A stretch of DNA of 45,912 nt. It comes from Clostridiales bacterium (GTDB lineage Bacteria; Bacillota; Clostridia; UBA1381). The position numbers were made by a program, and so were the translations under genes. Below, one piece after another: positions 29,734-45,619 of this stretch. The notes under the pieces were generated by a model that worked only from the letters and a program-made list of their open reading frames with translations, was not told the origin of the DNA and did no database searches. The DNA is taken from assembly GCA_029226065.1 (NCBI GenBank), contig JAQXXM010000002.1:1-45912 (forward strand), given 5' to 3'. Position 1 is the stretch's first letter; each line of letters starts with the position of its first letter.

Positions 29734-30020
29734 GGGGAAGCTGTTGCATTTAGCGCAGATCGTTCAAAGGCTTAAAATGCCATAAAATCAATATTTGATA
29801 AAGACTTATTGAATAAATTTGATGTTGAAATCCGCATTGTTTGCGGATTTCATATATTTAATGCCTTTGAACTATTCGCGAAACTCACCCTCGGAGTACC
29901 CGCGTACGCCGTCGGGCAAGGTGAAATGCGTATAAATCCGCATTTCACTTCGTTTCGCAAATTCTGCATCTAAATCCATTCAGCCCCACAAGGGGGGGCT
30001 GTTACTAATGCAACAGCCCC
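29734..30020 (+). mobile_element. MITE-like inverted-repeat element, copy A
   Basis: 287 bp. Terminal inverted repeats: left AGCTGTTGCATTTAGC, right (reverse complement) GGGGCTGTTGCATTAG. The inside is dense in perfect hairpins: GAAATCCGC...GCGGATTTC and GTGAAATGCG...CGCATTTCAC, plus subterminal arms TTCAAAGGCTTAAA / TTTAATGCCTTTGAA. Copy B at 39879 has the same sequence in the opposite orientation. No transposase is present. A stop-free frame reads ...LTLGVPAYAVGQGEMRINPH in both copies but lacks a conserved start. I saw no clear target-site duplication. Confidence 0.85.
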
Positions 30021-35202: not shown

Positions 35203-37413
35203 TTAAAATAAACTAAGCTGTCCGTCCTCATCCTTTAGCGTTTTTGCCGCCGCAGGGATTGAACGTGCAACATACTTTATTGCATTGTCAATCACCGACT
35301 CTGATGCAATCTCCACCTTTGACGGCACAACAGGCGTTTTAGGCTGACGTACAACCTGTACACCCTGTGTACTCTTAGTCGTCTTTAATGGGATTAGTGA
35401 TGTGTTAATTGTGAGTACACGGTTATTTTCTGTTATAATCACTATATCCGTATCTTCTTTTAGCAGTTTTATGTCGACTATAGGCGACTTTGATGAATAT
35501 GCACCAATTAATTTCTTTCGGTTAGTCTTTGTTTCATAGTTTCTAAGCTCCACCTTTGCCATCTTGCCGTTAGCAAATGTAAACAACATATTTCCGCTAA
35601 AATCCTTTGTGACTACTGTATATATTATTTTTTCATCGGGTTCAAGTCCGAGTATACTCGGAAGATACTCACCCATTGACGCAACCTTACTGTCAGGCAT
35701 ATCGTAGGTCTTGCACTTATACACATTCGCTTTATCGGAGAAGAATACAAGCTCTGATACGTTAGTTGTTTCCTCTATGAGAATAATCTCATCATCTTCT
35801 TTGAGCTTATGCTCCGATGTTGTAGAACGGAGCGACGATGCAGGTACTTTTTTAAGATACTGTTCCTTTGTAAAGAATATAGTCAAAGGATAATCATCAA
35901 TATGCTCATCCTCTTTATATACTGTCAGTTCATCACTCATTATAAGCTCTGTACGTCTGTCCTGCCCATATTTCTTGGCAATATCTGTAAGCTGTTTTGC
36001 TATTTTTGACTTAACGGCCCTATCGCTTGACAAAAGCTTATTTAGCTCGGCTATTTCCGCTGTCAATTTATCTATATTGTCAATATTTTTAAGGATATAT
36101 TCCTTATTCAGGTTACGCAAACGAATTTCGGCAATATACTCTGCCTGCGGCTGGTCAATACCAAAGCCTGCCATAAGATTTGGTATAACCTCACTGTCAA
36201 TCTCCGTATGGCGAATTATCGAAATTGCTTTGTCTATATCAAGCAAAATCTTTTTCAAGCCCATAAGCAAATGTAAACGCTTATTCTTCTGCTCAATGTC
36301 AAATCTTGCACCGTTTCTGATACACGTTATTCTGAATTTTATCCATTCGTTTAATATATCCCCTACACCCATTACCTTCGGTACAGAGTCTATCAATATA
36401 TTAAAGTTGCAGGCAAAGCTGTCCTCAAGCGGTGTCATCTTGTACAGCTTAAGCATAAGTGCATCAGGGTCCGTACCACGCTTTAAATCTATCGCTATCT
36501 TAAAGCCGTCCAAATCCGTCTCATCACGTGCATCTGATATTTCACGAAGCTTATTCGCCTTTAACAGCTCCATTATCTTACCGATTATTGCCTCTGACGT
36601 AGTAGAATACGGTATTTGGAGTATCTCTATACAGTTACTGCTCTTATCGTAGCGGTATTTTGCACGCATTTTGAAACTGCCTCTGCCTGTTTCGTATATT
36701 TTACGCATTTCGTCCTTATCGTAAACTATACTTGCACCGAGCGAAAAATCAGGTGCGGGCATAATGCTCAATATGTCTGCATTGCTGTCTTTCATATATG
36801 CTATTGTAGCTTCGCAAACCTCACGAAGATTAAATGAGCATATATTTGATGCCATACCTACCGCAATACCCTGATTTGGATTTACGAGAATTGACGGGAA
36901 TGCCGCCGGCAGTAGTGTCGGTTCTTTTTGTTCGCCGTCATAGTTGTCCACAAACTTGACAGTGTTTTTATTTACATCTGTAAAAAGCTCCGCACATATC
37001 GGCTCAAGACGTACTTCAGTATATCTCGATGCGGCATAAGCCATATCACGTGAGTAGGCTTTACCAAAGTTACCCTGTGACTCAATAAGCGGATGCAAAA
37101 GAGCCTCGTTACCACGTGTCAAACGTACCATTGTCTCATAAATTGCACTGTCGCCATGAGGATTAAGCTTCATTGTAGCACCGACAACGTTTGCAGACTT
37201 TGTAAACTTACCACCCAAAAGTCCCATTTTATACATAGTGTAAAGGAGCTTTCTGTGTGCAGGTTTCAAGCCGTCAATTTCAGGGATTGCACGTGAGATT
37301 ATAACACTCATAGCATAAGGCATATAATTTGTTTCAAGTGTCTCTGTAATCGCCTGTTCAGCAATGGGTGCATAGACTATTTCAGTCTCAGGCACATTCT
37401 TTTTTCTTGCCAT
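35203..37413 (-). CDS. parC: Topoisomerase IV subunit A-like (type IIA, ParC/GyrA family)
   Basis: 736 residues. Breakage-reunion domain with SRAIPEIDGLKPAHRKLLYT, GATMKLNPHGDSAIYETMVR and the catalytic Tyr131 in AYAASRYTEVRLEP. The coiled-coil region is around 380-500, followed by ~230 residues of beta-pinwheel blades. The C-terminus ends GQLSLF. No GyrA box (QRRGGKG-like) is visible, which favours a decatenating topo IV type over gyrase. AAAGGAG lies 8 nt before ATG. Paired with the ParE-like gene upstream, 17 bp away. Confidence 0.92.
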   Translation of the reverse strand: MARKKNVPETEIVYAPIAEQAITETLETNYMPYAMSVIISRAIPEIDGLKPAHRKLLYTMYKMGLLGGKFTKSANVVGATMKLNPHGDSAIYETMVRLTRGNEALLHPLIESQGNFGKAYSRDMAYAASRYTEVRLEPICAELFTDVNKNTVKFVDNYDGEQKEPTLLPAAFPSILVNPNQGIAVGMASNICSFNLREVCEATIAYMKDSNADILSIMPAPDFSLGASIVYDKDEMRKIYETGRGSFKMRAKYRYDKSSNCIEILQIPYSTTSEAIIGKIMELLKANKLREISDARDETDLDGFKIAIDLKRGTDPDALMLKLYKMTPLEDSFACNFNILIDSVPKVMGVGDILNEWIKFRITCIRNGARFDIEQKNKRLHLLMGLKKILLDIDKAISIIRHTEIDSEVIPNLMAGFGIDQPQAEYIAEIRLRNLNKEYILKNIDNIDKLTAEIAELNKLLSSDRAVKSKIAKQLTDIAKKYGQDRRTELIMSDELTVYKEDEHIDDYPLTIFFTKEQYLKKVPASSLRSTTSEHKLKEDDEIILIEETTNVSELVFFSDKANVYKCKTYDMPDSKVASMGEYLPSILGLEPDEKIIYTVVTKDFSGNMLFTFANGKMAKVELRNYETKTNRKKLIGAYSSKSPIVDIKLLKEDTDIVIITENNRVLTINTSLIPLKTTKSTQGVQVVRQPKTPVVPSKVEIASESVIDNAIKYVARSIPAAAKTLKDEDGQLSLF

Positions 37414-37430
37414 CTGTGTAGCTCCTTTCG

Positions 37431-39446
37431 TTATGATAAATCAAGCATTTCCATATACTGTGAGCCGTTATCGGAAATGTACTGTTTACGGCTTGTAAGA
37501 TTATCTCCCAATAAAACATCAAACATCATAGCCGTACGCTCTGCACTCTCTGGTGTAACACGTATAAGTCTGCGTGTTGCAGGGTGCATTGTTGTCAGGC
37601 TCATCATATCGGGCTGGTTTTCACCAAGTCCCTTTGAGCGTTTTATATCGTAATCGTCCTTGTCCTTTGACAGTCCTTCAGCGCTAAGCTTTTCTAATAT
37701 TTCCTCTTTCTCACTGTCTGTGTATGCAAAGTGTTTTTCACCCTTGCGTTTGCCTTTTGTAATGACGATTTCGTATAGTGGTGATTCTGCAATATATACT
37801 TTGCCCACCTCAATAAGCGTTGGCATCAGTCTGTAAATCATTGTAAGAAGCAATGTACGTATCTGATATCCGTCAACATCGGCATCTGTGCAAATGATTA
37901 CTTTATCCCATCTCAGGTTATCAAGCGAGAAGCTGTCAAGATTTTTGTTGTGTGATGATTTTATCTCAACACCACAGCCTAATACCTTTATAAGGTCTAT
38001 TATGACATCGCTTTTAAATATTTTCGGATAGTCTGCCTTAAGGCAATTTAATATTTTACCTCGTATGGGCATAATTGCCTGAAAAGACGCATCTCGTGCC
38101 AGTTTACATGAGCCTAATGCTGAGTCACCCTCAACTATATACACTTCACGCTTTGTAACATCTTTACTGCGGCAGTCAACAAACTTTTCCACTCTGTTTG
38201 TTACGTCCATTGAGCCTGTGAGTTTTTTCTTTATATCTATCCTTGCCTTCTCGGCATTTTCACGGCTCCTTTTATTTACTAATACCTGATTTGAAATTTT
38301 CTCGGCATCCGCCTTATTTTCAATAAAATATATTTCAAGCTGATGGCGCAGAAATTCCGTCATAGCATCCTGAATAAATTTGTTATTTATCGCCTTTTTT
38401 GTCTGGTTTTCGTAGCTTGTCTGTGTTGAGAATGAGTTAATAACGAGTGCAAGACAGTCCGCAACATCGTTAAAAGTTATCTTTGACTCGTTTTTATTAT
38501 ACTTACCCGCCTGCTTTAAATACTGGTCAACAGCATAAACGAATGCGTTTCTTACCGCCTTATCGGGTGAACCGCCATGTTCAAGATAGCTTGAGTTATG
38601 GTAGTATTCCAGGAAATTAACACGGTTTGAGAAACAAAATGCTACCTGCATTTTCATCTTGTAGTCATCTTTATCCTCACGGTCACGGCCTGTTCTTTCA
38701 CATTCCCAAGTCTCGACAGTTGTCATTGCCTCCTCGCCTACGGCATCCTTTAGATAATCCACAATACCATTTTCGTAATAGTATTCAAACATCTCCATAC
38801 CGTCTGCTGTTTCGTTATATAACACAAACTTCAGACCTGCATTTACCATAGCCTGTTTATTCAGTACATCTTTATAAAATTCTATAGGAATATTAATATC
38901 GGTAAAAACCTCTTTATCGGGACGCCATTTCTGCGTAGTACCTGTCTGGATACTGCGTACAGGCTCCTTTGTTAAACCGCCGATATTTTTTCCTTTTTCA
39001 AAATGTAATGTATATTTTGTCTTATCACGTATAACCTCAACATCCATATATTCAGAAGAATACTGTGTCGCACACGCACCAAGTCCGTTCAAGCCCAGAC
39101 TGTACTCATACTGTCCGCCCTTGTTGTTTTCGTACTTGCCGCCTGCATACAGCTCGCAGTATACAAGCTCCCAGTTAAAGCATTTTTCTGATTCGTTATA
39201 GTCAAGAGGCACACCTCTGCCGTGGTCACGCACTTCAATTGAATTATCCATAAAGCGTGTTATCTCAATAAGGTTTCCGTAACCCTCTCTTGCCTCATCT
39301 ATGGAGTTTGACAATATTTCAAAAAATGAATGTTCACAGCCCTCAAGACCGTCCGAGCCAAATATGACAGCCGGACGCAAACGTACACGTTCCTCGTCTT
39401 TTAATTTAACTATCGATTCATTGCTGTATTCGTTCTTCTTTGGCAT
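37431..39446 (-). CDS. parE: Topoisomerase IV subunit B-like (ParE/GyrB family ATPase)
   Basis: 671 residues from ATG (MPKKNEYSNESIVKLKDEER). GHKL ATPase: EILSNSIDEAREG, VRDHGRGVPLDYN and GLNGLGACATQYSSEY. TOPRIM: YIVEGDSALGSCKLARD and the DxD in CTDADVDGYQIRTLLL; C-terminal RSKGLGENQPDMMSLTTM. Known partner of the A subunit for chromosome decatenation. AAAGGAG lies 14 nt before this ATG; an overlapping out-of-frame ATG sits closer. The longer frame to 39545 would start upstream of the promoter at 39505-39533. Confidence 0.92.
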   Translation of the reverse strand: MPKKNEYSNESIVKLKDEERVRLRPAVIFGSDGLEGCEHSFFEILSNSIDEAREGYGNLIEITRFMDNSIEVRDHGRGVPLDYNESEKCFNWELVYCELYAGGKYENNKGGQYEYSLGLNGLGACATQYSSEYMDVEVIRDKTKYTLHFEKGKNIGGLTKEPVRSIQTGTTQKWRPDKEVFTDINIPIEFYKDVLNKQAMVNAGLKFVLYNETADGMEMFEYYYENGIVDYLKDAVGEEAMTTVETWECERTGRDREDKDDYKMKMQVAFCFSNRVNFLEYYHNSSYLEHGGSPDKAVRNAFVYAVDQYLKQAGKYNKNESKITFNDVADCLALVINSFSTQTSYENQTKKAINNKFIQDAMTEFLRHQLEIYFIENKADAEKISNQVLVNKRSRENAEKARIDIKKKLTGSMDVTNRVEKFVDCRSKDVTKREVYIVEGDSALGSCKLARDASFQAIMPIRGKILNCLKADYPKIFKSDVIIDLIKVLGCGVEIKSSHNKNLDSFSLDNLRWDKVIICTDADVDGYQIRTLLLTMIYRLMPTLIEVGKVYIAESPLYEIVITKGKRKGEKHFAYTDSEKEEILEKLSAEGLSKDKDDYDIKRSKGLGENQPDMMSLTTMHPATRRLIRVTPESAERTAMMFDVLLGDNLTSRKQYISDNGSQYMEMLDLS

Positions 39447-39504
39447 ATCCTGCTCATTTACTCCTTTCAAATTACACTTCCGATAATTAGTAATATACCA
39501 TCTT

Positions 39505-39533
39505 ATTTTATACCATTTATTGCGTTTTGTCAA
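39505..39533 (-). promoter_or_regulatory. Promoter of the topoisomerase IV operon
   Basis: TTGACA, 17 nt, TAAAAT on the minus strand; the run of minus-strand genes to tmk could be read from here. Confidence 0.8.
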
Positions 39534-39682
39534 GTGAAATGGCACAATTTATTGTGGTTCACCCATTTTATAACGGCTTTTTAACAAGGCAAGGACTGTC
39601 TATGCAATCTCGTAAATACAGGGTTTTATCAGAAAGATGAAAAATTTTTCAAAAAAGACTTTATTTTTCGGGAATTATATGG

Positions 39683-39688
39683 TATAAT
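39683..39688 (+). promoter_or_regulatory. -10 element of the SCIFF precursor
   Basis: TATAAT, about 40 bp before the ATG, with only a weak -35 (TTTATT) at 17 nt. AAGGAGG follows at 39709-39715. Confidence 0.55.
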
Positions 39689-39722
39689 GACTTAGTAAAC
39701 AATTTTTAAGGAGGTAAATACC

Positions 39723-39866
39723 ATGAAACATGTTAAGACTTTAAACAAGGCTAATCTTAAGGAATCAGCTGTTAAGGGTGGCTGCGGCGAGTGCCAGACT
39801 TCATGTCAGTCAGCATGCAAAACATCATGTACGGTTGCTAACCAGAAGTGTGAGCACGCTGAATAA
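39723..39866 (+). CDS. scfA: SCIFF ranthipeptide precursor (six Cys in forty-five residues)
   Basis: 47 residues. A leader MKHVKTLNKANLKESAVKGG is followed by a core with six Cys at 21, 24, 28, 32, 36 and 43 (CGECQTSCQSACKTSCTVAN). This is the near-universal clostridial SCIFF peptide, in which a radical SAM enzyme links Cys sulfur to acceptor residues (often Thr) away from the alpha carbon. Thr residues at 26, 34 and 37 are candidates. Strong ribosome site (AAGGAGG). The maturase follows after an inserted MITE-like element. Biological role is not established; a cell-signalling role has been proposed for the family. Confidence 0.96.
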   Translation: MKHVKTLNKANLKESAVKGGCGECQTSCQSACKTSCTVANQKCEHAE

Positions 39867-39878
39867 CTAAGAAGCCAA

Positions 39879-40159
39879 GGGGGTGTTGCGTTAGCAGCAC
39901 CCCCTTGTGGGGCTGAATGGATTTAGATGCAGAATTTGCGAAACGAAGTAAAATGCGGATTTATACGCATTTTACCTTGCCCGACGGCGTACGCGGGTAC
40001 TCCGAGGGTGAGTTTCGTGAATAGTTCAAAGGCTTTAAACACAGGAAATCCGCAAATAATGCGGATTTCAACATCAAATCCATTCAATAAGTCTTTACCA
40101 GACATTGATTTTATAGTATTTTAAGCCTTTGAACGATCTGCGCTAAATACAACAGCCCC
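39879..40159 (-). mobile_element. MITE-like inverted-repeat element, copy B
   Basis: 281 bp, reverse-oriented homologue of copy A (29734-30020), with the same ends (GGGGTGTTGCGTTAGCAGC and, reversed, GGGGCTGTTGTATTTAGC), the same internal hairpins and the same stop-free frame (KLTLGVPAYAVGQGKMRINP). It fills nearly the whole gap between the SCIFF precursor and its maturase. Its left end forms a hairpin (GGGGGTG...CACCCCC) that could reduce read-through from the abundant precursor transcript. Confidence 0.88.
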
Positions 40160-40196
40160 ATTGTTTTGTTATCTAATACGAAAGGAAATATTTACA

Positions 40197-41567
40197 TTGA
40201 TACATAAATATAAAATGTTCGATATGAACATAGTTCTTGATATATATTCGGGTGCCGTTCACGTGGTGGACGAATGTCTCTACGATATGCTTGACTATCT
40301 TTTAGAGCCGTTTACGCCTGAGAACGAGTGTCCGCAGTTCATACATGATGAGCTGATAAAAAAATACCAATCAGACGAAATCAAAGACAGCTATCTTGAT
40401 ATTTGCGAGCTGTACAGAAAAGGTCAGCTTTTCACAGACGATTGCTATGAGGAATTTGCGAAAAACTGGAACAAAAAGAGCGTTGTAAAGGCATTATGCT
40501 TACATATTGCACATGACTGTAACCTGCGCTGTAAATACTGCTTTGCAGGTACGGGCGAATATAACGGCGAGCGTGGCATAATGAGTGCCGAGACAGGAAA
40601 AAAGGCGATTGATTTCGTTATTGCAAACAGCGGAAACAGAAAAAATATTGAGCTTGACTATTTTGGCGGCGAACCGCTTATGAATTTTGAGGTGGTAAAG
40701 ACTATCACAGAATACGCCAAAGAACAAGGCAAAAAGCATGGCAAGAACTTCCGTTTCACCATTACAACAAACGGAATTCTTCTCGATGAGGAGAAAAAAG
40801 CATACATAAACGAAAATATGTCTAACGTTGTTCTTAGCATTGACGGACGTAAAGAGGTCAACGACCGTATGCGTCCCCGCATTGACGGATCAGGCACTTA
40901 TGACAATATTATTCCTAAGTTTATTGATATGGCAAACAGCCGTAATCAGGACAATTATTATGTAAGAGGTACTTTTACGGCATTTAACAAGGATTTCGCC
41001 GAGGATGTAATACATCTTGCAGATTTAGGATTTAAGCAAACAAGCGTTGAGCCTGTCGTTGCCCCATATTATGAGGAGTATGCTTTGCAGGAAACAGATA
41101 TACCTGAAATTTTCGCTGAATATGACAAGCTTGCGACTGAATATTTAAAGCGTTGGAAAGAGGGTAATTGGTTTAACTTCTTCCATTTTATGGTTGATCT
41201 CGATCAGGGGCCATGTGCAATAAAACGTCTTTCGGGATGTGGTGCAGGTCACGAATACCTTGCGGTTGCCGCAAACGGCGATTTGTACCCATGCCATCAA
41301 TTTGTTGGTAATCACGATTTTCTTATGGGTAGCGTGTATGACGGTGAAATTGACACTAAGATACGTGACTATTTTGAAAAATCAAATATTTACACAAAAG
41401 AAAAATGCAAAAACTGTTTTGCTAAATTTTATTGCAGTGGCGGTTGCAGTGCCAACGCACAAAACTTCAATGGTGATATTAATAAGCCTTATGAGCTTGC
41501 ATGCGAGTTAGAGAAAAAGAGAGTTGAGTGTGCTATCGCCATTGAGGCGGCAAAGAAATTAAGCTGA
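40197..41567 (+). CDS. scfB: SCIFF radical SAM maturase
   Basis: 456 residues from TTG (LIHKYKMFDMNIVLDIYSGA, as in known maturases), 10 nt after AAAGGA; the frame to 40161 begins at the MITE edge. An N-terminal RiPP-recognition region (about 1-100) precedes the radical SAM cluster CNLRCKYC. The SPASM region has CGAGHEYLAVAANGDLYPCH and CKNCFAKFYCSGGC, ligands for two auxiliary 4Fe-4S clusters. It uses S-adenosylmethionine to form thioether links in the SCIFF peptide. It reads in the same direction as the precursor, but 330 bp from it. Confidence 0.95.
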   Translation: MIHKYKMFDMNIVLDIYSGAVHVVDECLYDMLDYLLEPFTPENECPQFIHDELIKKYQSDEIKDSYLDICELYRKGQLFTDDCYEEFAKNWNKKSVVKALCLHIAHDCNLRCKYCFAGTGEYNGERGIMSAETGKKAIDFVIANSGNRKNIELDYFGGEPLMNFEVVKTITEYAKEQGKKHGKNFRFTITTNGILLDEEKKAYINENMSNVVLSIDGRKEVNDRMRPRIDGSGTYDNIIPKFIDMANSRNQDNYYVRGTFTAFNKDFAEDVIHLADLGFKQTSVEPVVAPYYEEYALQETDIPEIFAEYDKLATEYLKRWKEGNWFNFFHFMVDLDQGPCAIKRLSGCGAGHEYLAVAANGDLYPCHQFVGNHDFLMGSVYDGEIDTKIRDYFEKSNIYTKEKCKNCFAKFYCSGGCSANAQNFNGDINKPYELACELEKKRVECAIAIEAAKKLS

Positions 41568-41621: not shown

Positions 41622-41783
41622 TCAATGACAGGAGTCTCTCATTGCACAGTTTTCACATCCGCATCCACAGGATGTTTTGCCCTGTCTTTTGTTCCTTACG
41701 ATATAAGCTATAACTGCCGCAACAACGGCAATCAGAACAAAACATATAATAATTGTAGAAATATTATTAAGTATCCACGTCAT
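41622..41783 (-). CDS. FeoB-associated Cys-rich membrane protein
   Basis: 53 residues: MTWILNNISTIIICF, one membrane helix (about 8-28), then KRQGKTSCGCGCENCAMRDS and CH, with six Cys in the tail counting Cys52. AAGGAGG lies 6 nt before the ATG. This is the small protein commonly found after feoB in Firmicutes; it may bind iron or a cluster. It starts 30 bp after feoB ends and is probably the last gene of the feo transcript. Confidence 0.93.
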   Translation of the reverse strand: MTWILNNISTIIICFVLIAVVAAVIAYIVRNKRQGKTSCGCGCENCAMRDSCH

Positions 41784-41813
41784 AATAACCCTCCTTTTTG
41801 CACAATGTTGTAT

Positions 41814-44330
41814 TTATATTGTTATACTCGCCTTAGCATTAAGCTTGTTGTTTTCTTTGTATGGCTTAAACAGCATATAAATCATAAATGCAAGCACTGC
41901 CAAAGCAGAAATCAGACCAATTACATTTACGTTGCCACAAAACAACATACCGAACTGATTTACCATAAGTGCTATTGCATAAGCAAATACACACTGATAG
42001 CCTATTGCAAACCAAGTCCATTTCGCATTATTCATCTCACGCTTGATAGCACCGATTGCCGCAAAGCAAGGAGCACACAAAAGATTGAACACAAGGAACG
42101 AATATCCCGATACCTGAGTGAAAGCCTCTGCAAGATTTTCGTATACTGTTCCTGAACCACCGTAGAGAATACCCATAGTTCCTACTATATTTTCCTTTGC
42201 TACAAGTCCTGTAATAGATGCAACGGTTGCCTGCCAATTTCCCCAGCCAAGCGGTGTGAATATCCATGCAATTGCATTTCCGATAGCAGATAAAATACTT
42301 AAATCCAACTGTTCCTCTGAAAGCATTGTAAATTTACCGTCAACAAAGCCAAAATATGTTGTAAACCAAATTACAATCGTAGACAGGAGAATTATTGTTC
42401 CCGCCTTTTTAATAAATGACCACCCACGCTCCCACATACTGCGCAGAACATTTGATACTGTGGGAATATGATAGCTTGGCAGTTCCATAACAAACGGAGC
42501 AGGATCACCTGCAAACGGTCTTGTCTTTTTAAGAATTATTCCCGATAAGACAATCGCCGCCATACCTACAAAATACGCCGATGTTGCCACCCATGCAGAA
42601 CCCCCGAATATAGCACCCGCAATCATCGCTATAAACGGTACCTTTGCACCGCAAGGGATAAATGTTGTTGTCATAATTGTCATTTTTCTGTCACGGTCAT
42701 TTTCAATAGTTCTTGATGCCATAACACCCGGAATACCGCACCCTGTGCCGACAAGCATCGGAATAAAGGATTTTCCCGAAAGACCGAATTTTCTGAATAC
42801 TCTGTCTAATACAAATGCAATACGCGCCATATATCCACAGCTTTCCAGGAATGCAAGAAGTAGGAACAATACAAGCATTTGAGGTACAAAGCCTAAAACC
42901 GCTCCGACACCTGCTACAATTCCGTCTAATATAAGTCCCGAGAGCCAATCGGCACAGTTTGCGGCACTTAAAAGGCTTTCAATAAGAACAGGGATGCCCG
43001 CAATCCATACACCATAATCAGCAGGATCGGGTGCAGTACATCCGTATTTTTCGTAAATATCTATTGATGCAAGCAAATCATCATAAGATGATGTTACCTT
43101 CTCATCTGCCATTGTTTCTTCATCAACAACTGTGTACGTTGCTTCATCAATACCTTTTGCAGAGTCTGCAAAGGCTGTCAATGCAGAAAGTGCCGCATCG
43201 GCATCAAAATCTTCTAATTCGGTATCAAGTGCCACCTCAACATCTTCAGTGTCAACACCATTATCTGATGCATATTCAATGTAGCCATTAACAATCTGTG
43301 AGGCTTCACCAAATTCATCGAAATCATCTGTGTACGCAGATGAGCCTATTCCGAACAAGTGCCATCCATCACCAAACAACCCGTCATTTGCCCAATCCGT
43401 TGCCATTGTACCGACAGATACCATTGATATGTAATAAACAAGGAACATTATAACTGCAAAAACAGGAAGTCCCATCCATCTGTTTGTAACTATCTTGTCA
43501 ATCTTATCGGAATTAGATAATTTTCCTGTATTTTTCTTTTTATAACAGCCCTTCATCAACTGCGAAATATAAATGTATCTTTCGTTAGTAATAATACTCT
43601 CCGCATCATCGTCAAGCTCTAATTCTGCAGCAGCTATATCTGTTTCAATATGCGACATTTTTTGATCTGAAATATTAAGGGATTTAAGCACTTTTTTATC
43701 ACGCTCAAAAATTTTAATTGCATACCACCTTTGCTGTTCTTCAGGCATATCGTGAAGAACTGCTTCCTCGATATGAGCAAGGGTATGTTCGACAGTGCCT
43801 GAAAATGTATGCATCGGAACAGTTTTTCCGTTCTTTGCCGCATTAATTGCCGCTTCTGCCGCCTCCTGTATCCCTGTTCCTTTCAATGCAGAAATTTCAA
43901 CTATTTTGCATCCAAGCTCACGTGACAGTTCTGTGATATTTATTTTATCTCCATTTTTCCTTACAATATCCATCATATTTATAGCTATTACAACAGGAAT
44001 ACCAAGCTCAGTAAGCTGAGTGGTAAGATAGAGGTTTCTCTCAAGGTTTGTACCATCAACGATATTTAATATTGCGTCAGGCCTCTCGCCGATAAGGTAG
44101 TTTCTTGCAACGACCTCCTCTAATGTATATGGAGATAGAGAGTAAATACCGGGAAGGTCGGTGATTATTACACCGTCATGCTTTTTAAGCTTACCTTCTT
44201 TTTTTTCAACCGTAACGCCTGGCCAGTTTCCAACAAACTGGTTAGAGCCTGTAAGTGCGTTAAACAGCGTTGTTTTACCGCTGTTTGGGTTACCCGCAAG
44301 GGCAATTCTCAAATTCATAATTATCACCAT
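41814..44330 (-). CDS. feoB: Ferrous iron transporter FeoB with a large acidic insert
   Basis: 838 residues (834 if the second ATG, 44318, is used). G domain: GNPNSGKT at 13-20, DLPG at 58-61, NMMD at 118-121, SALKG near 147-151. Core membrane region with the Gate motifs LAFLESCGYMARIAF, MLVGTGCGIPGVMASR and FIPCGAKVPFIAM. Between the first two helices (about 334-440) lies a very acidic extra segment, not present in short FeoB proteins and probably outside the membrane. Imports Fe(II) and is regulated by GTP hydrolysis. A palindromic operator (44479-44492) and a shared leader precede it. Confidence 0.95.
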   Translation of the reverse strand: MVIIMNLRIALAGNPNSGKTTLFNALTGSNQFVGNWPGVTVEKKEGKLKKHDGVIITDLPGIYSLSPYTLEEVVARNYLIGERPDAILNIVDGTNLERNLYLTTQLTELGIPVVIAINMMDIVRKNGDKINITELSRELGCKIVEISALKGTGIQEAAEAAINAAKNGKTVPMHTFSGTVEHTLAHIEEAVLHDMPEEQQRWYAIKIFERDKKVLKSLNISDQKMSHIETDIAAAELELDDDAESIITNERYIYISQLMKGCYKKKNTGKLSNSDKIDKIVTNRWMGLPVFAVIMFLVYYISMVSVGTMATDWANDGLFGDGWHLFGIGSSAYTDDFDEFGEASQIVNGYIEYASDNGVDTEDVEVALDTELEDFDADAALSALTAFADSAKGIDEATYTVVDEETMADEKVTSSYDDLLASIDIYEKYGCTAPDPADYGVWIAGIPVLIESLLSAANCADWLSGLILDGIVAGVGAVLGFVPQMLVLFLLLAFLESCGYMARIAFVLDRVFRKFGLSGKSFIPMLVGTGCGIPGVMASRTIENDRDRKMTIMTTTFIPCGAKVPFIAMIAGAIFGGSAWVATSAYFVGMAAIVLSGIILKKTRPFAGDPAPFVMELPSYHIPTVSNVLRSMWERGWSFIKKAGTIILLSTIVIWFTTYFGFVDGKFTMLSEEQLDLSILSAIGNAIAWIFTPLGWGNWQATVASITGLVAKENIVGTMGILYGGSGTVYENLAEAFTQVSGYSFLVFNLLCAPCFAAIGAIKREMNNAKWTWFAIGYQCVFAYAIALMVNQFGMLFCGNVNVIGLISALAVLAFMIYMLFKPYKENNKLNAKASITI

Positions 44331-44344
44331 TAAATCCTTTCACA
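44316..44344 (-). promoter_or_regulatory. Shared 5' leader (copy 3, feoB)
   Basis: The minus strand reads TGTGAAAGGATTTAATGGTG, ATAATT, ATG. Here an additional in-frame ATG (44330) lies 4 nt after AAAGGA, so two starts are possible. Confidence 0.6.
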
Positions 44345-44350
44345 AAACCC

Positions 44351-44459
44351 GTTTGGGAAAAGAAAAGCAAGCAGATTGTGCGTCCGTGCGAACGCTGTGT
44401 ACTCAATGTACATAAGTGAGCACTGATGTGCGAGATGCACCGCTTATCTTTTTCCAAAC
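44351..44459. repeat. 109-bp inverted-repeat element between feoA and feoB
   Basis: Arms GTTTGGGAAAAGAAAAGC (44351-44368) and the complement of GTTTGGAAAAAGATAAGC (44442-44459) match at 16 of 18 positions. The interior carries short palindromes (GTACATTGAGTAC, GTGCATCTCGCAC). A stop-free 56-codon frame runs through it into feoB out of frame. Could be a small mobile repeat or a structured leader. Confidence 0.55.
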
Positions 44460-44478
44460 TTAATTCCTCGCTTTCATA

Positions 44479-44492
44479 TTAGTTATGACTAA
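44479..44492. promoter_or_regulatory. Metal-repressor operator candidate upstream of feoB
   Basis: TTAGTTATGACTAA, related to the palindromes at 44988-45065. Suggests a separate control point for feoB. Confidence 0.55.
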
Positions 44493-44510
44493 CCTTATGC
44501 TAAAAATTTT

Positions 44511-44732
44511 TCATTCTACTTCTATCATTTCGGCATCCTCCTTACGGATAGACAGTTCATATCCCCTAACCGTAATCTCAATCGGATCTCCCAACGGTGC
44601 CGCTTTTCGGATATATACTTCAGTTCCTTTTGTGATACCCATATCCATAATTCTGCGTTTTACACCACCTTCGCCGTGAAGCTTTTTCACTCTTACTGTA
44701 TCTCCGATTTTTGCCTGTCTTAATGTCTGCAT
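44511..44732 (-). CDS. feoA: FeoA-domain protein (second)
   Basis: 73 residues, SH3-like: QAKIGDTVRVKKLHGEGGVK, RRIMDMGITKGTEVYIRKAA and LGDPIEITVRGYELSIRKED. FeoA proteins bind and assist FeoB at the membrane. GGAGG 7 nt before ATG. Second of two tandem feoA genes; 27 bp after the first. Confidence 0.94.
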   Translation of the reverse strand: MQTLRQAKIGDTVRVKKLHGEGGVKRRIMDMGITKGTEVYIRKAAPLGDPIEITVRGYELSIRKEDAEMIEVE

Positions 44733-44759
44733 AATTTTTCCTCCATTATAATATAGTTT

Positions 44760-44972
44760 TTAGACCATAATTTTTCGTGCCATTTCTTCACTTATGGCAA
44801 CCCTTGACTCTTTTACATTTACAATAACATTCCCCCCTAATTCACTAATTACCCTGACAGTTCCGCCCACAACAAAGCCAAGGTTTTCAAGGTGTTTTTT
44901 TACTTCGGGATTTCCTCCGATTTTTTTAATCGTGTTTTCTTCTCCCACATCTGTAAGCGACAACGGCATCAT
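44760..44972 (-). CDS. feoA: FeoA-domain protein (first)
   Basis: 70 residues: MMPLSLTDVGEENTIKKIGG, HLENLGFVVGGTVRVISELG and NVIVNVKESRVAISEEMARK. The sequence differs clearly from the second FeoA, so the two probably have distinct partners or roles. GGGAGG 6 nt before ATG. First gene of the feo transcript, directly behind three operator palindromes. Confidence 0.94.
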   Translation of the reverse strand: MMPLSLTDVGEENTIKKIGGNPEVKKHLENLGFVVGGTVRVISELGGNVIVNVKESRVAISEEMARKIMV

Positions 44973-44987
44973 ATATAACCTCCCTCT

Positions 44988-45003
44988 GTTAGACTTTACT
45001 AAC
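44988..45003. promoter_or_regulatory. Metal-repressor operator candidate 1
   Basis: GTTAGACTTTACTAAC, GTTAG/CTAAC arms with a 6-nt spacer, in the feoA leader. Confidence 0.6.
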
Positions 45004-45021
45004 CAAAAGCTTAAATAAAAA

Positions 45022-45037
45022 GTTAGATTTGACTAAC
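45022..45037. promoter_or_regulatory. Metal-repressor operator candidate 2
   Basis: GTTAGATTTGACTAAC, the same arms and spacing as site 1, close to the expected transcription start. Confidence 0.65.
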
Positions 45038-45045
45038 CCACTATA

Positions 45046-45065
45046 GTTAGTTTAACATAACTAAC
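45046..45065. promoter_or_regulatory. Metal-repressor operator candidate 3, overlapping the feo -10
   Basis: GTTAGTTTAACATAACTAAC: perfect 7-bp arms with a 6-nt centre. It covers the TAAACT -10, so binding would block polymerase. Confidence 0.75.
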
Positions 45066-45077
45066 ATAATTTGTCAA
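45049..45077 (-). promoter_or_regulatory. Promoter of the feoA-feoA-feoB operon
   Basis: TTGACA (45077-45072), 17 nt, TAAACT (45054-45049) on the minus strand. Confidence 0.8.
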
Positions 45078-45126
45078 TACTTAATTTAAAAATTTTTTCG
45101 CCTGTTAATGAGAATTATAATTTAAT

Positions 45127-45155
45127 TTGACATAACGAATAATATGTGATACAAT
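45127..45155 (+). promoter_or_regulatory. Promoter of the DtxR/MntR-type repressor
   Basis: TTGACA, 17 nt, TACAAT on the plus strand; no copy of the GTTAG palindrome overlaps it, so strong autorepression is not evident. Confidence 0.75.
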
Positions 45156-45247
45156 AGAATAAGTAAAAATGGTGAATTTACTGTTATATGGAAACAGTTA
45201 TATAAATGCTTTTTGAATATATTAAATTTGTATGGAGTGCCGATATT

Positions 45248-45619
45248 ATGAGAATACAAGAATCAGCAGAAAATTATCTTGAAGCTATTTTAATGATAAA
45301 ATTAAACAAAGGCTACGTACGAAGCATTGATGTCGCAAATCATCTCAACTTTTCAAAGCCGAGCGTTTCTGTTGCTATGAAAAATTTTCGTGAAGACGGA
45401 TACATTGCAATGGACCCAGACGGCAGTATTAACCTGACCGAAAAAGGGCAGGAAATTGCAGAAAGAATGTATGAACGTCATCAAATAATCGCAAAAGCTT
45501 TAATGGCTTTAGGCGTTGATGAGGAAACTGCATACAAAGACAGCTGTAAAATAGAGCATGATATAAGCGATTTAAGCTTTGAAAAAATCAAGGAACATTT
45601 GATAAGACACTATGACTAA
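45248..45619 (+). CDS. DtxR/MntR-family metal-dependent repressor
   Basis: 123 residues from ATG 10 nt after GGAG; the longer frame (45206) lacks a ribosome site. N-terminal winged helix (SAENYLEAILMIKLNKGYVR, SIDVANHLNFSKPSVSVAMK, GYIAMDPDGSINLTEKGQEI) and a dimerisation/metal domain with ERHQIIAKALMALGVDEETA and CKIEHDISDLSFEKIKEHL, which supply His, Glu and Cys ligands. No SH3 domain, as in MntR. Divergent from the feo operon, whose promoter carries palindromes of the right type, so it most likely represses iron uptake when metal is plentiful. Confidence 0.92.
   Translation: MRIQESAENYLEAILMIKLNKGYVRSIDVANHLNFSKPSVSVAMKNFREDGYIAMDPDGSINLTEKGQEIAERMYERHQIIAKALMALGVDEETAYKDSCKIEHDISDLSFEKIKEHLIRHYD

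Follow-up and report, generated by a model that had tools for sequence, protein, structure and literature searches.

The SCIFF locus analysed here is probably a canonical ranthipeptide locus with a single promoter, in which a dispersed repeat stands where relatives have a hairpin that may attenuate the transcript or protect the precursor mRNA. The locus occupies positions 39723-41567 on the + strand of the window, the whole 45,912-nt stretch of DNA under study, to which all coordinates refer. The genome is an assembly in 187 contigs with 91% completeness, and the comparisons across genus, order and class drew on one genome per species.

SCIFF precursor and maturase

The precursor gene (39723-39866, +) encodes a 47-residue peptide that scores 85.3 bits against TIGR03973 (cut-off 50), covering model positions 1-43 of 43, and 86.6 bits against the Pfam SCIFF family PF13165 (cut-off 27, E 9.6e-25). 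An MKH leader is followed by six cysteines within about 45 residues, a feature of family membership, and the cysteines lie exactly where the original prediction had placed them, at residues 21, 24, 28, 32, 36 and 43. Over its first 21 residues the peptide matches the leader of CteA, as crystallised with CteB.

The second gene runs in the same direction and encodes a ScfB/CteB type radical SAM/SPASM protein (40197-41567, +). It scores 705 bits against TIGR03974 (cut-off 425, model positions 1-450 of 451), and its residues 1-451 align end to end with CteB (5wgg, E 4e-196), the nearest match among solved structures. The radical SAM motif CNLRCKYC and the cysteines of the SPASM region align with those of CteB, as does the N-terminal part, in a structure solved with the CteA leader. 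PF04055 is above its cut-off and the SPASM model TIGR04085 reaches 65.9 bits versus a cut-off of 27, while Pfam SPASM PF13186 stays just under its own (20.4, cut-off 21.5). Judged from the sequence, the best placed start would be the TTG at 40197-40199, behind the ribosome-binding site AAAGGA at 40181-40186 (+). It gives (M)IHKYKMFDMNIVLD, matching the CteB start IHKFSMMGTNIVVD, and thereby agrees with the earlier expectation that the protein begins like known SCIFF maturases; its direction, its SPASM radical SAM nature and its 3' end at 41567 are likewise as predicted. With TIGR03973 and TIGR03974, the two models proposed as a check, both passed by wide margins, the description of the locus as a complete SCIFF ranthipeptide system, complete meaning precursor plus maturase, stands. 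The maturase also scores on the model of ScfB-related orphan maturases, NF040492 (586 bits), and on the look-alike model NF047865 (285 bits), as it might if the pair were an orphan ScfB-like maturase or a PapB-type ranthipeptide system and not SCIFF. Both scores fall under the respective cut-offs of 855 and 340, whereas both SCIFF models are passed, and this reading, already refuted, keeps virtually no probability. Family and structure matches exclude chance for the predicted SCIFF identity.

The locus shares with CteA/CteB of Clostridium thermocellum (5wgg/5why) the leader, the six-Cys core and the full-length radical SAM/SPASM maturase, and differs in the dispersed repeat that it carries in the gap between the genes. 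Membership in SCIFF rests on the family and structure matches, and we infer the chemistry from the characterised relatives. By analogy, the maturase would bind the MKHVKTLN... leader of the precursor, and S-adenosylmethionine radical chemistry would join the sulfur of a core cysteine to a nearby residue to give a cross-linked peptide. In CteA the thioether runs from Cys32 to either Thr34 or Thr37, a point on which published accounts disagree (PMC8326336, PMC8102284); residues C32, T34 and T37 are all present in the window peptide. The earlier remark that the function is not settled is fair, though knock-outs in solventogenic Clostridium (Chen et al. 2020, as summarised in PMC8102284 and PMC8326336) tie SCIFF products to quorum sensing and sporulation genes. 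In C. beijerinckii, loss of SCIFF is accompanied by lower expression of sporulation genes and higher expression of the agr locus (PMC8326336, PMC8102284).

The SCIFF pair itself is an ordinary member of a family with a very wide distribution in Clostridia, since precursor and maturase are each single-copy in this genome, the precursor is present in all 16 of the 16 genus genomes examined, and a scan of named genomes with an alignment as query found at least 592 precursor relatives, the 80 retained coming from many groups of Clostridia.

Promoter and neighbouring genes

A candidate promoter for the precursor (39659-39688, +) consists of a conserved box, CTTTATTTTT, and an extended -10, TGGTATAAT, whose TATAAT lies at 39683-39688; the ribosome-binding site AAGGAGG follows at 39708-39714 (+). 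These are the separate -10 and the strong ribosome site that the original prediction had assigned to the precursor. The box followed by TGGTATAAT / TGNTATAAT has a single match in the whole genome, and a box with TGnTATAAT is found upstream of most SCIFF precursors in the genus. More widely, an extended -10 of the TGnTATAAT type precedes the precursor in 81% of 84 SCIFF loci versus 6% of shuffles.

Divergent from this promoter lies a type II topoisomerase pair (35203-39545, -) related to GyrB/ParE and GyrA/ParC, the B subunit of which scores below the NCBIfam cut-offs for both GyrB and ParE. Beside the maturase, at 41622-45619, is an iron cluster made up of a FeoB-associated Cys-rich protein, FeoB, two FeoA and a DtxR-type iron-dependent repressor.

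A hairpin conserved between precursor and maturase

Intercistronic hairpins are a general property of SCIFF loci. A hairpin below -12 kcal/mol is found in 93.5% of 77 SCIFF gaps versus 26% of shuffled gaps, and the mean hairpin energy is -22.8 in the former (n=77) versus -9.1 in the latter. The difference persists against real same-direction gaps taken from the same loci: among gaps of 50-200 nt, 92% of 66 SCIFF gaps hold a hairpin versus 36% of 69 controls (Mann-Whitney p 4e-13, with related loci counted as independent). Within the genus the hairpin takes the form CGCTTGGC...GCCAAGCG, followed by (T)ATTGTTTTG. From its end to the start of the maturase gene the median distance is 38 nt, which is mostly too short for a separate promoter.

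The simplest reading is that the hairpin would act as a leaky terminator, such that a minority of transcripts reach the maturase gene. A strict, terminator-like rule of hairpin plus U-tract holds for 29 of the 77 gaps, and because many of the hairpins come without a clean U-tract it is also possible that they protect or stabilise the precursor mRNA instead of attenuating transcription. An excess of precursor over enzyme, as the original prediction had suggested, would fit the precursor's own extended -10 together with the conserved intercistronic hairpin. Literature searches on RiPP attenuators returned general reviews or nothing.

A dispersed repeat in place of the hairpin

The gap between precursor and maturase measures 330 bases in the window versus 74-171 in relatives from the genus, and it is filled by a dispersed structured repeat of 284 bases (39877-40160, +). 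Relatives with the same gene pair have gaps from which the repeat is absent. When these gaps are compared with that of the window, ...AAGCCAA, which resembles the old hairpin's 3' arm, is retained on the left and the U-rich tract ATTGTTTTG (40160-40168, +), which follows the hairpin in relatives and the repeat here, on the right. The preservation of both flanks places the repeat within the former hairpin, and on this comparison the putative ancestral hairpin is replaced in the window genome by the dispersed repeat.

The repeat opens with a GC-rich 5' hairpin (CAAGGGGGTGTTGCGTTAGCAGCACCCCCTTG; 39876-39907, +; -27.9 kcal/mol), an inverted repeat that begins 9 bases past the precursor stop and that other copies also have, with varying arms. 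No U-tract lies downstream of this hairpin at 39876-39907 and it received no terminator call. The closing stem, helix 1, pairs GGGGCTG at 39909-39915 (+) with CAGCCCC at 40153-40159 (+), so that its 3' strand now stands immediately before the U-rich tract. Between the two strands lies the conserved core (39928-40073, +; 164.6 bits, E 3.9e-30 with R1, a covariance model of the 147-position core). A search of the + strand of the gap found no sigma-70-like site. In one other member of the genus (G010), a distant relative of the repeat lies 3' of the SCIFF precursor and runs the opposite way (L024 1736-1862, -), at a point where the contig ends.

Fold, copies and spread of the repeat

Searching the genome with the repeat yielded 53 matching pieces, corresponding to about 40 separate copies of which roughly 26 are near full length. 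One of these copies is in the window itself (29740-30020, -), with 92% identity and an R1 score of 168.2 bits for the core. The region 39867-40199 has a predicted fold of -139 kcal/mol (z-score -13.4), and the structure was assessed on an alignment of 26 repeat copies from 13 genomes. Eight helices run through this alignment, with 97.1% of cells paired versus 85.6% in shuffles of the letters within columns, which do not take relatedness away, and 29-47% in slid controls, which keep relatedness and score far lower. The structure was itself drawn from this alignment, which gives it an advantage in the slid control. Changes on both sides of a pair are seen for 46 of 66 pairs versus 18.6 in shuffles, and the covariation score is 0.354 versus 0.133 in the control. 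On the + strand, G.U pairs outnumber A.C mismatches by 123 to 12, which shows that the structure belongs to this strand, on which the SCIFF genes are read, and rules out the reverse strand as the working strand of the repeat.

Of 95 genomes in the order, 59 contain an R1 match, and these represent 20 of 27 genera. A sample of the class, with 391 genomes from 222 genera, has matches in 54 genomes and 30 genera, and many families of Clostridia are represented. Compared with Rfam, the repeat gave nothing at the gathering thresholds and chance-level matches only at E up to 10, and limited searches of open-access text returned general reviews or nothing. On these searches the repeat may be undescribed, and it could be known under another name.

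Two kinds of shorter sequence were seen alongside the repeat. Five loci (L066, L072, L075, L079 and L083) carry shorter versions, 84-114 bases long, in which the 5' hairpin and the 3' part remain and the core is missing; together they might represent a size series of the kind known from MITE families. Two others (L076 and L081) are stand-alone, terminator-like hairpins that share a TGTTGC...GC(A/G)ACA centre with the 5' hairpin of the repeat.

Placement of copies and likeness to known elements

Copies of the repeat favour gene ends. Sorted by flanking genes, the 39 copies comprise 23 with convergent, 15 with same-direction and one with divergent neighbours, as compared with 16 convergent, 32 same-direction and 11 divergent in the same-genome background (convergent p 0.003, divergent p 0.025); neighbours were called by simple ORF length, and the SCIFF copy was recoded by hand as the 47-aa gene upstream of it is too short for the ORF limit. 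Within the window's own genome the stop of the upstream gene is often 6-20 nt from the copy. This placement is consistent with copies that either insert at gene ends and terminators or are favoured there by selection.

With its short, non-coding sequence, about 40 copies and ends GGGG(G/C)TGTTGC...GCAACAGCCCC that form inverted repeats, the repeat has features of a MITE. Target-site duplication gave no signal at the repeat copies, the best z being 2.1 over 324 combinations of offset and length. Pairs of end motifs 2 and 3.3 kb apart, considered as candidates for an autonomous version, enclose ordinary genes and no transposase. No recurrent protein adjoins the copies, and the plasmid and phage collections searched held no match.

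By its features the repeat looks like a terminator-associated, mobile repeat of the SPRITE/BOX kind. Known elements of this type include SPRITE, a rho-independent terminator-like element, BOX and RUP of Streptococcus pneumoniae and ERIC of enterobacteria (PMC10969869, PMC3049150). Compared by features and not by sequence, these share with the repeat a short, non-coding, strongly structured sequence present in many intergenic copies, SPRITE being terminator-like as well. The repeat differs from them in its larger, eight-helix fold, its presence in many families of Clostridia and the lack of a target-site duplication signal. A further parallel is offered by group IIC introns, which insert behind terminators. 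They too are structured RNAs with many copies at the 3' ends of genes and no obvious target duplication; unlike them, the repeat has no intron match in Rfam, is about 280 nt long and has no recurrent neighbouring protein.

Proposed mechanism and alternatives

Both SCIFF genes are probably driven by the one extended -10 promoter before the precursor. Across Clostridia, the arrangement of the locus suggests that the hairpin with its U-rich tail would serve as a partial terminator, or as a shield of the precursor mRNA, and so yield more precursor than enzyme. In the window, the old U-rich tract is preceded by the repeat's closing stem, which may do the job of the ancestral hairpin.

Were the hairpins full terminators, which they do resemble, the maturase would need a promoter of its own and the locus would consist of two transcription units; the 330-base gap of the window even gives room for such a promoter inside the repeat. 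We regard this arrangement as unlikely, given that the hairpin leaves too little space for a promoter before the maturase start in most relatives and that the sigma-70-like site it calls for was not found on the + strand of the window gap. Another view starts from the very stable predicted fold of the gap and holds that the insertion damaged the locus, the strong structure cutting maturase expression and leaving the peptide hardly modified. That seems quite improbable when both genes are intact and far above their cut-offs, the maturase has kept its ribosome site, the ancestral U-tract is still there, and relatives have a strong hairpin at the same place too. The reading of one promoter and one intercistronic structure, formerly a hairpin and here a repeat, is the one we prefer. 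A tentative and rather doubtful extension of it would make the repeat an undescribed, class-wide mobile structured RNA of Clostridia that settles at terminators and here takes over the hairpin's role in setting the ratio of precursor to maturase.

Implications

The SCIFF pair is one more case of its family; what makes the locus interesting is the hairpin conserved between the two genes and the structured repeat that replaces it here. The hairpin would provide a simple, testable account of how SCIFF operons may put out more peptide than enzyme. If its structure and its preference for gene ends hold, the repeat would represent a sizeable family of RNAs or mobile elements that annotation now misses.
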